Shown here: positions 1 through 21,438 of the stretch, one piece after another | Layout: every line of letters starts with the position of its first letter | Position numbering within the stretch: the stretch's first letter is position 1 | From: a virus | Strand: one strand, 5' to 3' | DNA: 21,438 bases | Virus record (IMG/VR): IMGVR_UViG_3300005832_000007 | Span: 1 to 21,438 of that record | Position numbers and translations under genes: made by a program | Notes under the pieces: model-generated | What the model was told of the DNA's origin: nothing | The model's database searches: none | Seen by the model: the letters and a program-made list of their open reading frames with translations, nothing else

Positions 1-188
1 AATGGCGTGGTGAAGTCGATTTATTGGCCCTGATCTTCTGTCCCTGCAAAAAAAATCTGCCCCTCGAGCCCGTGATTTGTACGCGGCCCTTTTACCCCTT
101 TTTGCAAAAAAAAACGAATCATACGCTTTGGTCCTAATCTAAAAAACCCTTTTTTGTCCGCTATCTTATCTCGTTTACCGTCAACCAC
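1..188. other. Non-coding left region with A-tracts
   Basis: No convincing coding frame is present. The stretch carries an A8 run at 48-55, an A9 run at 106-114 (both preceded by TGC), and a perfect A6-CCC-T6 inverted repeat at 141-155. The A-tracts would give locally bent DNA. I see no promoter with both boxes at good spacing. With the iterons that follow, this may belong to a packaging or replication control region, which is inference from position only. Confidence 0.5.
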
Positions 189-241
189 GTTGTAAACTGT
201 TGCCGAACGTTGGGCTAACCGTTGCCGAACAGTTGCCGAAG
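189..241 (+). repeat. Five tandem iteron-like GTTG repeats upstream of terS
   Basis: Five direct repeats start at 189 (GTTGTAAACT), 199 (GTTGCCGAAC), 209 (GTTGGGCTAAC), 221 (GTTGCCGAAC) and 232 (GTTGCCGAAG). The copies at 199, 221 and 232 share GTTGCCGAA exactly; 189 and 209 are degenerate. Start-to-start spacing is 10, 10, 12 and 11, close to one helical turn, so a protein could bind every copy on one face of the DNA. Arrays like this serve as terminase small-subunit binding sites (pac or cos) or as origin iterons. The nearest gene is terS, which favours packaging, but nothing in the window decides it. Confidence 0.7.
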
Positions 242-257
242 GTTCTTAAGATCTAAG

Positions 258-280
258 ACCCTTCCCTGGGGGGGAAGGGT
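258..280. terminator. Strong GC hairpin, possible terminator of an upstream transcript
   Basis: ACCCTTCCC at 258-266 pairs perfectly with GGGAAGGGT at 272-280 around a TGGGG loop. A G run (281-286) and then a T-rich stretch (288-297, TTCTTTTCTT) follow. The T stretch is displaced by about seven bases from the stem, so it is not a textbook Rho-independent terminator. It could instead be a structural element of the packaging or origin region. Confidence 0.4.
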
Positions 281-287
281 GGGGGGA

Positions 288-330
288 TTCTTTTCTTAGA
301 AAAAGAAAAAGGAGAGAAGAAAGAAAGAAG
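288..330 (+). other. AT hairpin and 33-nt polypurine tract
   Basis: TTCTTTT (288-294) can pair with AAAAGAA (301-307). From 298 to 330 every base on the + strand is a purine. It contains an AAGGAG string (309-314), but the first possible start codon (TTG at 331) is about 16 bases away, too far for normal initiation. Homopurine tracts can adopt unusual structures and, next to the iterons, may be part of a cis-acting site. Confidence 0.5.
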
Positions 331-497
331 TTGACTCTAGCTATAGCCAGGTGCTTGCTTCCCGGCAGGGGCAGTTCCTCTCCCCGTGAAAACAAACTGG
401 AACAGCCGTCGGTTCTGGCCCATAAGAACCACTCTCAGACTCTTGGTTTTGAAGTTCTTGGGTTTTCTCTTTACGCTCGCGCCGCAAAGGAAAGCAT
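331..497 (+). other. Untranslated leader before terS
   Basis: I find no gene here. A TTGACT hexamer at 331-336 has no matching -10 box about 17 bases downstream. A 6-bp inverted repeat, GGTTCT (411-416) with AGAACC (425-430), is present. The frame opening at TTG 331 has no usable ribosome binding site and overlaps terS, so it was not called. Confidence 0.4.
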
Positions 498-965
498 ATG
501 CGCAAAAGCAACGGCGGTAACGGAGACGGTAACGACAATCGACGTGTAGCAAATTGTGGGGATAAGCAACTCAAGCCACGCGAGAGAATGCTTGTCGAGA
601 TGTTAGTTGACCCGCTCGACCCACGTCCAGAGTCACAGAAGGCTTTAGCGGCGGGATACAAAAACGGCAAGCAGGTTTACGAGTTTGTTAACAGGCCGCA
701 TATTGCCAGAGCGATCCGCGAAGCAAGCGACCGCTGGATGACGTCACTTGCAAACCTACGGCGTCCACAAGTGCTCAAGGCTGTATCGGACCGAGCCAAG
801 AAAAACAGCCCACCCGACGCCAGGACGTTTTTTCAAGTTACCGACGATATCACAACCGGAACCAACCTGAACCTAACCCAGGTCCAAACGAATGAAGCAG
901 AAGTACGTGCGTTGCGTAAAGAACGCCTTGGAAACCGCGTCGCCGCGTTACAAGACGATTCTTGA
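498..965 (+). CDS. terS: Terminase small subunit
   Basis: This 155-residue protein is the likely DNA-recognition subunit of the packaging motor, which binds the concatemer at pac or cos and hands it to the large subunit. Its size is typical. After a polar N-terminus (1-25), residues about 26-75 (KPRERMLVEMLVD, AAGYKN, NRPHIARAI) have the look of the helix-turn-helix DNA-binding domain of the family; the rest is predicted helical oligomerisation region plus a variable tail. AAAGGA at 486-491 sits six bases before the ATG. It is directly followed by, and overlaps by 74 bases, the large subunit gene, the standard order. The iteron array about 260 bases upstream is a candidate binding site. Identification rests on fold pattern and synteny. 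Confidence 0.8.
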   Translation: MRKSNGGNGDGNDNRRVANCGDKQLKPRERMLVEMLVDPLDPRPESQKALAAGYKNGKQVYEFVNRPHIARAIREASDRWMTSLANLRRPQVLKAVSDRAKKNSPPDARTFFQVTDDITTGTNLNLTQVQTNEAEVRALRKERLGNRVAALQDDS

Positions 966-2607
966 CGAACTCGCTTCAGTGACGGATGACGCGATTGACC
1001 TTTGGCTGTGGTCATGGTGTGCGCGGCATCCTCGGTTTTTCCTCGAGTGCTTCACAAAGATTCCAATCCCACGCTACGGCCCGAGTGATTGGACGTTCCG
1101 ACGACCGCAACAAGCCTACTTCGACGCAACGCACCAATGGATCAACGACCGCATCGGTTACCGAAAAACGGTGCGCCGGAACATCGTCCTCAAAGCCAGG
1201 CAGCACGGCGGGACCACCGAAGAGATAGGCGAGATCTATCACGATATGTGCTTTATCGGCCTATCCTACGTTGGCAAGATTATCACGTTCGAGGACGACA
1301 CGGCCGCAAAGCTCAAGAAAATTCTTGATACGATGCACGCCGGCGCGATTGCGACGTTCACCGAACTTGGGTTTAGCCCGTACTATTTTTTGCCGTTTGT
1401 GCCGTACCGCAAGGACGATTCGACGTTTGGCAACAAACATGATTTCGAGTGCGACGACACGGGGAGTACGATCGAATTCACGACCGAGGGCGGCAAGGGC
1501 TCCGGGCGATCGCTGACGGTCAATCGCATGTACTGGACCGAATACCAGAAGTGGCAGCGCACGGCGGATGCAAAGTCGGGGTTTCTTGGGTCGATGGTCC
1601 AGGACGGCACGGCAACACACACGATCGACGGGACGGGTAACGGTATTGGCAATGCGCTGTACGCGGAATACCAAGCGGCGAAAGCGGGAGAGTCCGCGTA
1701 CATGGCGCACTTCTACGGCCTGGACTCGTTTGGTTATGACCCCGAGTTTCTCGCCGAACAGCGCTCGGCGTTGGGCGATGATTTGTTCCAGCAGGAATAT
1801 CCTGCGACGGATGAAGACGCTTTCGTCCGTGACGACAATGCGCGATTCAAAACTCGCGACATCTTCGCATGTGCCGAGCGCGATGAGGTAACTGGCGTCT
1901 GTGGCGCTCAGTACATGTGTGATGTCGACCCGTTCAAGAGCGATCCATCGCGGCTATTCGGCGAGGTGTTTTCGCACGGGTGCGACCCCGCCGATGTGAC
2001 GCCGACCGGATCAAAGACGGCGATCTCCACGCGACACGTCAAAAGCGGCATGTTGGCTTGTGAACCGTTCAACGAGTTCGCGTCCCCTCGAGAGTGCGCG
2101 TTTGAGCTTCGCCGTCGGTTTGAACGGTTTCCGGGTCTGATTGTGGTCGAGGAAAACAACCACGGCCATGCGGTGATTATGAAGTGCCTTGACCTCAGTG
2201 TTCGCAAGGGTCCGTTCGCTGGTGAACCACTACGGCGGTATATGTACAAGCACCCAAAACCGGGCCGAGATTTTGCAGATTGCAAATATGGCTGGCCGGA
2301 GAACAAGGACACCAAGGTGCAGCTTGCGTGCGACTACGAAGAACGGCTTGAACAGCGGGCAATCAACATGCCATGCGAAGAGCTGCGTAAACAGGCGCGC
2401 GAGTTTTGCCGTCGGCCGGATGGGTCGCTTGGACGACCGAAACAGGGAGAGCGTCGCGAGGGGAAACAAGAGACCTACGACGATTTGATTATGGCGGACA
2501 TGATGGCGATACAGGGATACGAGCAGGCGCTGCGGCGTGTGCGCAAGGATCGAAATAACGTGGGCGCCGGCTTGGCTGGAATGACAACCTCGATGAGGAA
2601 GGACTGA
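892..2607 (+). CDS. terL: Terminase large subunit (ATPase and nuclease)
   Basis: This 571-residue protein is the packaging motor: the N-terminal ATPase drives DNA into the prohead at the portal vertex and the C-terminal RNase H-like nuclease cuts genome units. The Walker A-like motif KARQHGGTT is at 101-109. The Walker B region ends LTVNRMYWTEY with catalytic Glu about 217. QEYPATDEDAF (301-311) is the conserved link between the domains. Nuclease signatures are DPAD near 365, VEENNHGHAV (419-428) and YDDLIMADMM (529-538). The ATG at 892 lies inside terS, with a weak AGGT eight bases upstream. An in-frame GTG at 979 is the alternative start but has no visible ribosome binding site. Length and motif order match active terminases, and nothing looks truncated. 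Confidence 0.95.
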   Translation: MKQKYVRCVKNALETASPRYKTILDELASVTDDAIDLWLWSWCARHPRFFLECFTKIPIPRYGPSDWTFRRPQQAYFDATHQWINDRIGYRKTVRRNIVLKARQHGGTTEEIGEIYHDMCFIGLSYVGKIITFEDDTAAKLKKILDTMHAGAIATFTELGFSPYYFLPFVPYRKDDSTFGNKHDFECDDTGSTIEFTTEGGKGSGRSLTVNRMYWTEYQKWQRTADAKSGFLGSMVQDGTATHTIDGTGNGIGNALYAEYQAAKAGESAYMAHFYGLDSFGYDPEFLAEQRSALGDDLFQQEYPATDEDAFVRDDNARFKTRDIFACAERDEVTGVCGAQYMCDVDPFKSDPSRLFGEVFSHGCDPADVTPTGSKTAISTRHVKSGMLACEPFNEFASPRECAFELRRRFERFPGLIVVEENNHGHAVIMKCLDLSVRKGPFAGEPLRRYMYKHPKPGRDFADCKYGWPENKDTKVQLACDYEERLEQRAINMPCEELRKQAREFCRRPDGSLGRPKQGERREGKQETYDDLIMADMMAIQGYEQALRRVRKDRNNVGAGLAGMTTSMRKD

Positions 2608-2611
2608 GCGC

Positions 2612-5017
2612 GTGAATTTTTGGAAGCGACAGGTTCAGCGTGCTTTTGATACAGTGGTCGCGCGAGGATGGGCAGCATACCAGGACCAGGACCAACCGAA
2701 GACGACGCACAAAGAGGCGGGGGTTAGCGCGCCTACGGGCTGGCGCGGGATGGGGCTTGATACGCCGTATGGATTATTTCAGACCAAAGGTTACGGACTG
2801 GTCGAGCAGATGATGCGCGATGAGGCGTTTGGGACATTCCTTGAGCTTAAAAAGTCGGCGGCGTTGTCGGTCAAGATAACGTTTGAGCCGTACCTGACGG
2901 ACGACCCGAAGGCTGTTGATATCGCAGAATCAGTCGAGGCGAGTTACGACACAATCAAGGGATCGATGGTCGAGGCATTGCACGATCAACTGACGGCGAT
3001 AGAGTATGGGTTTTCGTGTGCGAACGTAGTTTATCAGTTGATCCCGTCGGGCGATTTCGCGGGAAAGGTCGGGCTAAAACATCTCAAAGTCAAGGACCCG
3101 TCCTCGATAAAGTTTGACGTCGACGAGTACATGAACATCCGCCCAGACGGGATTATCTTCACAAACGCGGACGGGTACGACGAGCGATTGCGCACGGACG
3201 AATTTGCGGTGTACACGTATCGGCGCAGGCTGGGCAATCCATACGGATACCCTGACACGCTGCGGGCTTACGAGTCCTGGAACTCTAAGCGGTGGATGAA
3301 TAAGTTCTGGGACATCTACTGTGAGCGGTTCGGGACTGGGACGATGATGTTCAAGTACAAAACGGACTCAGAGACAGGAGACGTTCTTCCGACGGCGGAC
3401 GAATTCGCGGCCGTGCAGAGCTACATGGACAACAAACAGGCAAGGTCTGATTTGCGCGTGTCGCAGAACTGGGAAATAGACATGCACGAACCGACGGGGC
3501 GCGGAGCGGACGTTTTCCAGCAGTCCATCCAGGCGCGCAATATCGCAATAGCCCGGGCGCTGTTTTTTCCCGACCAGATTGGATTTTCCGACGTGTCGAC
3601 GGGGTCGTTTGCGAAGGCGCAGACACATTTGTCCGTGTTCCTTTGGCCGCTGCATCGCTTGCACCGTGACCTCGAGGAAGTCCACCGCGAACAGGTTATC
3701 AAGCGGATGGTCGATCTAAACTATGGTCCGCAACCGGGGTATCCTCGCATGGCGTTTGCCCCGTTGACGGAAGAGCAAAAAGTGCAATGGCTGGCGGCGG
3801 TAACTGAGGCGATCAAAACGGGCGTGATTACTCACGACCTCGAGGTTGAGAACAAAGTGCGTTCGGCGCTGGAGTTGTCTGAGAAGGAACAGGAAGAGGA
3901 TAGGCGCGCCGGCGGGTCAGGGACACCGCCGACCACCGAGCCGCCGGAGGATGGCGCCGACGTCGATGACGTTGTTTCTGACGACGGTATCGGCGACATT
4001 ATCCCGTCTCGTGGCAAGCACCAGCGCCACTCCTTTCAGTTGGCAAAGCGGAGTCGGGCGCTCACGGTCTACGAGCGGAAAATGGACATCGACGGCATCA
4101 TCAAATTTGTTAACGATACACAGAGTCAGTTCGTAGATACGTGGGCGTCCCACATGGCGGCGAATTTGCAATCGATCAAGGACTACGCGAAGAAAACAGG
4201 GTTGATTGCAAATGCGGATTCAATTGCGATCGAAAAGCTGAAGATGAGCAGGGTGGCCGACCAGCGCAAGAGCCTGCAGCGTGCGATGCTATCGCAGTTG
4301 TACTACGGTGCATTACAGGCGCAGCAGGAGGTTGAGCGCGCGCGGGCTGGGAACTATGAATTCAGCGCCGGTGGTGCGCATCAGTTTGCGGCGATAGACG
4401 TGGCCGACATGCCGATAACGGAGATCGAAAAGTTTTTCGAAAGCAAGGGCATGTCTATCAGTCCCGCGATTCGCAAGGCGGCAGCGACGATCAAACGCAA
4501 ATCCGTGTTTGTTACCGGCGTTGAGAATCAGTCGATCTTGGCCAAGGCAAAGTTGACTCTTTACCGAGGGCTTGAGAAGAGCGACCCGGTTTGGACGGAG
4601 ACTCAGCTTGCAAAAATTTTCAACGGCTATTTGAAGACAGGGGAGATCACGGACAAGGCTTTGGGGACGGCGCACCGAATCGAGTTGATCGCGCGTAACA
4701 ATTTTTCGACAGCGATCAACGACGGGCGTCGCGTGATGTTCGAGGACAAGGATGTCGCGGGCTTTGTCGAAGCGTATCAGTGGTCGGCGGTTTTGGACGA
4801 CGCCACAACGCCGACGTGCGAAATGCTCGACGGGAAAGTGCTGCGCAAAGAGGATGTCAATTCGTTTGGCTGGCCGCCAATACATCACGGGTGCCGGTCT
4901 ATGATCGTGCCTGTGACAACCGGCGAGCGGTACACGATTGACAAGATGCCACGGGCGGCGGAACGTGGAGACGGGTTTGCTCATTGTGGGCGGTCCGAAC
5001 TATTAGTAGCAGTGTAA
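2612..5017 (+). CDS. Portal protein fused to MuF-type minor head protein
   Basis: This 801-residue protein joins two head proteins. Residues about 1-440 resemble the DUF935/Mu gp29 portal family, including the RRRLGNPYGYPDTLR stretch near 205-217. The portal forms the dodecameric channel for DNA and docks terminase and connector. A charged, Pro/Asp-rich linker (about 425-475) leads into a helical region and then a gpF/SPP1 gp7-type head morphogenesis domain. Its signature is WSAVLDDATTPTCEMLDGKV (724-743) followed by PPIHHGCRS about 15 residues later. Portal and MuF are usually separate adjacent genes. The frame is continuous, with no stop or frameshift at the junction. The GTG start is four bases after terL's stop, with GAGGAAGGA at 2594-2602. 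A precursor cleaved by the downstream protease is possible. Confidence 0.88.
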   Translation: MNFWKRQVQRAFDTVVARGWAAYQDQDQPKTTHKEAGVSAPTGWRGMGLDTPYGLFQTKGYGLVEQMMRDEAFGTFLELKKSAALSVKITFEPYLTDDPKAVDIAESVEASYDTIKGSMVEALHDQLTAIEYGFSCANVVYQLIPSGDFAGKVGLKHLKVKDPSSIKFDVDEYMNIRPDGIIFTNADGYDERLRTDEFAVYTYRRRLGNPYGYPDTLRAYESWNSKRWMNKFWDIYCERFGTGTMMFKYKTDSETGDVLPTADEFAAVQSYMDNKQARSDLRVSQNWEIDMHEPTGRGADVFQQSIQARNIAIARALFFPDQIGFSDVSTGSFAKAQTHLSVFLWPLHRLHRDLEEVHREQVIKRMVDLNYGPQPGYPRMAFAPLTEEQKVQWLAAVTEAIKTGVITHDLEVENKVRSALELSEKEQEEDRRAGGSGTPPTTEPPEDGADVDDVVSDDGIGDIIPSRGKHQRHSFQLAKRSRALTVYERKMDIDGIIKFVNDTQSQFVDTWASHMAANLQSIKDYAKKTGLIANADSIAIEKLKMSRVADQRKSLQRAMLSQLYYGALQAQQEVERARAGNYEFSAGGAHQFAAIDVADMPITEIEKFFESKGMSISPAIRKAAATIKRKSVFVTGVENQSILAKAKLTLYRGLEKSDPVWTETQLAKIFNGYLKTGEITDKALGTAHRIELIARNNFSTAINDGRRVMFEDKDVAGFVEAYQWSAVLDDATTPTCEMLDGKVLRKEDVNSFGWPPIHHGCRSMIVPVTTGERYTIDKMPRAAERGDGFAHCGRSELLVAV

Positions 5018-21113: not shown

Positions 21114-21126
21114 TTTTTGCAATTCT

Positions 21127-21144
21127 CCGCCTTGGGGGCGGTTT
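21127..21144 (+). terminator. Weak hairpin after the endolysin gene
   Basis: CCGCC (21127-21131) pairs with GGCGG (21137-21141) around TTGGG, followed by only TTT. It is just 14 bases past the endolysin stop, a natural place to end the late operon. A short stem and short T tract make strong intrinsic termination doubtful. Confidence 0.35.
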
Positions 21145-21264
21145 CCCGGCCGTCTGGGGTAATATCGGGATTTCCACCGCTCAATTTGGCCCCTAGTGCC
21201 CGTTTTCGGCACTCTCTCCGGTTGACACTCATATTTGCCCGACAATGGACGATTATATGTGAGC

Positions 21265-21292
21265 CTGACGATGGGGCCACCAACACTATAAT
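21265..21292 (+). promoter_or_regulatory. Candidate sigma70-type promoter
   Basis: A perfect TATAAT at 21287-21292 has CTGACG (21265-21270) 16 bases upstream as a 4/6 match to TTGACA. An unpaired TTGACA also occurs at 21222-21227. Transcription would run toward the window end, where the next gene is not visible. Confidence is low because random matches are common. Confidence 0.3.
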
Positions 21293-21378
21293 CGGCCAAA
21301 ATCCCCCGGATATTTTTAGCCATTTGGGGCGCGAGCTTGCGGCCACGGGATGCCGTCGTGCTGGCACAGGATTTGCTT

Positions 21379-21423
21379 GCATATTACCGTAATGATTATT
21401 TTTGCGGATTGTGCAAATTACCG
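21379..21423 (+). repeat. Two GCA(T/A)ATTACCG direct repeats
   Basis: GCATATTACCG (21379-21389) and GCAAATTACCG (21413-21423) differ by one base and start 34 bases apart. The first overlaps a perfect ATTAC-C-GTAAT palindrome (21383-21393). The reverse-strand form GGTAATAT also occurs near 21157. The second is directly followed by TTGACA (21425-21430), so these may be operator-like sites for a promoter crossing the window end. Confidence 0.4.
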
Positions 21424-21438
21424 CTTGACACACATTAC

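Follow-up and report, generated by a model that had tools for sequence, protein, structure and literature searches.

The window, that is, the whole stretch of DNA analysed, is an entire 21,438-base virus record that by gene content belongs to a tailed phage. All genes are carried by the + strand and encode terminase, a portal fused to a Mu F-like protein, protease/scaffold, capsid, neck, tape measure, Dit and endolysin. The order, terS followed by head, tail and lysis genes, is the one used by Alt/Ltr-type phages. The portal (Portal_Mu) and the Mu F-like minor head protein form a single fused ORF at 2612-5017, as they do at 2860-5193 of L176, a related contig described below; they are encoded by two separate genes in phages Glittering, GBK1 and phiT1. 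No convincing gene was found in positions 1-497, which leaves approximately 500 bp of apparently non-coding DNA ahead of terS. The features located in this region, including an array of short direct repeats, are listed in Table 1 together with the terminase genes. To the left of the array the contig has 194 bp, again with no convincing gene, and no Rfam family was matched in the window. A second non-coding stretch, 3′ of the endolysin gene (21114-21438), may mark where the next operon begins. It includes the promoter-like sequence CTGACG-16-TATAAT at 21265 as well as a ATTACCGTAAT palindrome and a TTGACA close to the cut contig end.

Table 1. Features of the region upstream of terS and terminase genes (positions in the window)
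Feature	Positions	Strand	Basis or remark
A/T-tract segment with predicted intrinsic curvature	81-200		Bending prediction, rank 4 of 1,066 windows
Degenerate unit 5′ of the array, AACCACGTTGTA	183-194	+	Sequence
Core array, four 11-bp direct repeats, AACTGTTGCCG AACGTTGGGCT AACCGTTGCCG AACAGTTGCCG	195-238	+	Sequence, period scan
Fifth unit, partial (AAGGTT), continuing the 11-bp phase of the array	239-244	+	Sequence, period scan
Possible weak -10, TAAGAT	247-252	+	8 bp 3′ of the last full repeat
Perfect 9-bp stem with 5-nt loop, ACCCTTCCC-TGGGG-GGGAAGGGT	258-280		No other perfect stem of 8 bp or more in the window
G-quadruplex-type motif, GGGGGGGAAGGGTGGGGGG	268-286	+	Sequence
Pure purine tract, A-rich	300-329	+	30/30 purine, purest in the window
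Putative small terminase gene (terS)	498-965	+	Position before TerL, predicted all-helical content
Large terminase gene (TerL)	892-2607	+	Listed ATG overlaps terS by 74 bp

When the sequence AAC is taken as the anchor, copies are found at 195, 206, 217 and 228 (with AAG at 239), the spacing is exactly 11 bp and the repeat unit is AACNGTTGCCG. The AAC and GTT ends are retained across the units and the middle is variable. The half-sites AAC-N-GTT are small palindromes that occur roughly once per 11 bp of array, and another small inverted repeat, CAAC-CAC-GTTG (182-192), is located at the degenerate unit. The original prediction described the locus as five helically spaced iterons of the GTTGCCGAA type that start every 10-12 bases. 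Unit starts anchored on GTTG are indeed present at 189, 199, 209, 221 and 232, but GTTGCCGAA is exact only at 199, 221 and 232, while the units at 189 and 209 match at 5/9 positions. Since the AAC-anchored copies are exactly 11 bp apart, the wobble between 10 and 12 bp is an artefact of the GTTG anchor. The repeats are real, beyond what shuffled sequences produce, and their register is a strict 11 bp.

The array exceeds chance. The number of period-11 column matches was 37/44, compared with a maximum of 35 across the whole window in 2,500 Markov-2 shuffles. Matches at lag 11 and lag 22, which peak for the whole window at the array, added up to 42, compared with a maximum of 40 in the same number of Markov-2 shuffles. 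The looser 10-12 bp spacing of the GTTG register was equalled by 7 of 4,360 shuffles. These tests superseded an initial k-mer shuffle test, which was inflated by self-overlapping k-mers. The array was also detected by TRF (199-244, period 11, 4.3 copies, score 44).

The A-tracts, strong hairpin and polypurine tract that had been expected to adjoin the repeats are all present (Table 1). Curvature was predicted using a wedge model. The hairpin is located 20 bp from the array, and the purine tract lies within the 60-bp segment of the window (286-345) that melts most easily. The possible -10 sequence has no -35 partner at normal spacing, the closest arrangement being TTGCCG at 222 with a spacer of 19. 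No sigma-70-like promoter above the scan threshold was found within positions 1-1500.

The distance from the end of the array to the terS ATG at 498 is 259 bp, in line with the approximately 260 bases anticipated, and a good ribosome-binding-like sequence, AAAGGAA, lies just 5′ of this ATG. The putative TerS protein had no match in database searches. Its AlphaFold model is all helical with a mean pLDDT of 46, too poor for a fold search. Because the homology of TerL to its L176 counterpart begins near residue 43, the true TerL start is probably downstream of the listed ATG, and the GTG at 979 is one candidate.

L176, a 7.7-kb IMG/VR contig, was the only near relative found in IMG/VR, with 45% identity in TerL and 42% in the portal protein. 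A megablast search with the window and a blastn search with positions 1-497 against phages produced no match, and the array alone produced only chance-level matches against phages and plasmids. Single-sequence scans with TerL, portal and capsid identified no relative, and alignment scans identified L176 plus only distant others. Across 1,176 genomes from three phyla, a TerL profile recovered just three matches, all weak and partial. By these comparisons the window phage stands almost alone: the 50,697 phage records searched include no close relative.

The original prediction proposed looking for the repeat upstream of terS in related genomes. It is absent from L176, where the gap before terS is just 56 bp, and none of the 27 more distant relatives has an array scoring as high in the region before terL. 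The best of these reached 35/44 in AT-rich low-complexity DNA of two related contigs. The 56-bp gap of L176 includes TTGACA...TATCAA with a spacing of 18, which fails a stricter scan in which the final T is required. The DNA 5′ of terS in L176 consists of the end of an O-like replication gene followed by a gene with weak helicase-loader similarity. The putative TerS of L176 aligns poorly with that of the window; therefore, a different TerS site in L176 would not be surprising.

Pattern scans of IMG/VR returned a single strict match (L003), which was dismissed as lying inside a tape-measure gene, and 50 looser matches, of which those inspected were in coding-like frames. A widespread 11-bp element based on TTGCCGAA triplets in bacterial genomes was also considered and rejected, as there are one or two loci per genome and the neighbouring genes are unrelated. 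Short 11-bp tandem arrays of this type were seen at L101 7107-7147, L026 5668-5697, L070 2456-2496, L107 6231-6286, L118 6696-6725 and other loci. They belong to unrelated bacteria and one archaeon, are mostly in apparent non-coding DNA and have no common neighbour genes. Other TTGCCGAA arrays, with a period near 23 bp and also mostly in apparent non-coding DNA, were found in L010, L024, L051, L052, L062 and L095 (Bacteroidales, Clostridia and others); these are possibly ends of mobile elements. A phased array of approximately 10 bp and of the CCTCTTAAA type, which beats its shuffles, is located at L222 706-755, about 5.3 kb upstream of the portal gene of a distant relative.

Packaging, replication origin and late promoter were considered as functions of the array, and the late promoter is the one that fits the anatomy best. 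We hypothesized that the array serves a late-gene activator as its operator and that the activator is encoded immediately beyond the left end of the contig, and we give this reading a probability of about 0.45. A small phage-encoded activator, whose gene would be located just left of the contig end, would occupy the four 11-bp repeats as adjacent copies on a single helix face, beside the bent DNA. The bound activator would then bring the host RNA polymerase to a weak downstream promoter, and the late operon, comprising terS, terL and the portal, capsid, tail and lysis genes, would be switched on. A boundary between early and late genes at terS is suggested by L176, because its replication genes directly precede terS. 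In general, the target of a late regulator (Ltr) is a set of four imperfect repeats in the promoter that directly follows the regulator's own gene and precedes the packaging genes (PMC13123087). Deletion of the repeats in phi13 abolished promoter activity (PMC13123087). An operator of the Alt/Ltr class would be expected to have an activator gene for approximately 130-145 amino acids directly upstream. The window has four imperfect direct repeats (195-238) upstream of the packaging genes, and the TAAGAT at 247, weak and with no good -35, is a candidate -10 for a late transcript.

The layout observed, a strictly 11-bp array in a non-coding gap before terS that has no good sigma-70 promoter, matches that of lactococcal phage TP901-1. 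In this phage, the activator Alt has its binding site in four imperfect direct repeats, located at positions -76 to -32 of the late promoter (PMC13123087). The gap between alt and terS in this phage, 576 bp long, was subjected to the same scan without using the published position of the operator. Period 11 with four units was the best of periods 8-24, and the units AAATTGGGATA AAAACGACACG AAAAAGGCACG AAATTGGAGTG were found at L253:2998-3041. This result was equalled in 0/300 shuffles, and when 60 bp more sequence was included the p value was 0.006 (500 shuffles). Counted from the TATACT at 3062, 20 bp beyond the array, the repeats span approximately -76 to -33, which is the reported Alt site. 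Period 11 was also the best in the activator region of phig1e (3 units, p = 0.012), and the same scan found no significant period-11 array in the activator regions of Tuc2009, ul36, r1t and O1205. A period-11 array is therefore present in two of the six known activator regions examined; the other four, like the lack of the array in L176, speak against the reading. By analogy with TP901-1, the array most likely works like the Alt operator, and it is probably a control switch of an ordinary kind rather than a packaging signal. As for the original idea of a compact cis-acting packaging or replication site, the compact element beside terS is supported and looks protein-binding; a packaging or replication role was not demonstrated, and the operator of a late activator is the better fit to the anatomy.

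A packaging site, although unlikely, is the next explanation to be weighed. The small terminase would nucleate on the array as on a cosB- or pac-like site, the bent DNA at the left would help TerS wrap it, and cleavage would occur nearby. The array sits in the first non-coding DNA ahead of terS, the predicted bend adjoins it, and no putative DNA-binding protein other than TerS was noticed next to it. In SPP1, direct repeats are part of the pac site, which overlaps the terS promoters, and it has been proposed that TerS selects bent DNA (PMC4737164). Because of this overlap, the two readings are compatible, and a packaging site and a late promoter can coexist. However, the DNA-binding domain of SF6 TerS has little preference for the pac repeats (PMC4737164). 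The precedent of phased TerS binding sites, invoked by the original prediction, is weaker than claimed, since direct repeats do exist in SPP1 pac but the SF6 TerS domain does not read them, bent DNA being the proposed cue (PMC4737164). The lack of a comparable array in L176, in spite of its 45% identical TerL, and of one scoring as high in the 27 distant relatives also argues against packaging. A more specific version, a terminase-recognition site of a new layout in which a TerS ring would assemble on an 11-bp, one-per-turn array beside bent DNA in a lineage almost without sequenced relatives, is rather improbable.

It is also rather improbable that the repeats are iterons to which a phage initiator binds and that the A-rich purine tract in 286-345 is the unwinding element. 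Helically phased direct repeats are followed here by the easily melted stretch. Iteron DNA in lambda is bent and adjoins an A+T-rich stretch whose purines are almost all on the same strand, and the iterons of plasmids are in helical phase (PMC5043065). In addition, L176 has the end of an O-like initiator gene and a helicase-loader-like gene just before terS. Nonetheless, the 11-bp unit is shorter than the iterons reported for lambda (19 bp) and for plasmids (22 bp), a GC-rich hairpin sits between the array and the purine tract, and the window has no initiator gene, while the lambda origin is located within the initiator gene.

There is little likelihood that the array is another kind of tandem protein-binding site, such as those of OmpR/PhoB-type regulators, rolling-circle plasmid initiators or partition proteins. 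The PHO box consists of two 11-nt direct repeats, and 11-bp repeats are used by some partition proteins. In plasmid pGL2, the bind locus is made up of four 11-bp repeats in tandem, at a distance of 52 bp from nic, where an inverted repeat forms a hairpin, an arrangement comparable to the array and nearby hairpin of the window. However, no regulator, relaxase-like initiator or partition gene was noticed in the window, and none of these sites is expected ahead of terS. That the array is a functionless, chance short tandem duplication in non-coding DNA is just as hard to favor: the 11-bp TTGCCGAA arrays in unrelated contexts of bacterial genomes indicate that such arrays can arise independently and no conservation of the array is demonstrable, but the array, bend, hairpin and purine tract cluster within one 250-bp stretch, and the units preserve their AAC and GTT ends despite the variable middle.

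If the array is the operator of a late activator, the four-repeat operator of the TP901-1 type extends to a phage lineage without close relatives, and a small activator gene is predicted immediately left of the contig. A phased array before terS should then not be read as a packaging signal by default.

Comparison with known systems places the locus nearest to the activator-controlled late promoters. The lambda iterons are 19 bp long and lie inside gene O, whereas the window has 11-bp direct repeats, an intervening GC hairpin and no initiator gene in view; bent repeat DNA close to an A-rich, strand-asymmetric purine tract is common to both (PMC5043065). Like the locus, the pac regions of SPP1 and SF6 combine direct repeats with bent DNA at the gene for the small terminase (PMC4737164). 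However, SPP1 pac overlaps promoters and the start of gene 1, while the array of the window is strictly 11-bp periodic and 259 bp upstream of terS. The P23 promoter of staphylococcal phage phi13, of the Ltr/RinA type, carries three repeats and a partial one ahead of its late packaging operon, and promoter activity depends on them (PMC13123087). The phi13 repeats are 18 bp long, and the 11-bp length is not a rule of the class. The Alt/Ltr activators were described in Gram-positive hosts, which the window phage is not known to infect. In TP901-1, alt is found beside the gap, whereas the activator gene of the window phage would be outside the contig and its existence is assumed. The repeat letters of the two phages share nothing obvious, the distance from array to terS is 521 bp in TP901-1 and 259 bp in the window, and the candidate -10 of the window is weak and 12 bp closer to the array. 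The window and the operator of Alt, a late activator of the PF05263/DUF722 family, have in common four imperfect repeats with an 11-bp period, a gap of approximately 500 bp before terS, a promoter (only a candidate in the window) without a good -35 and co-directional genes.
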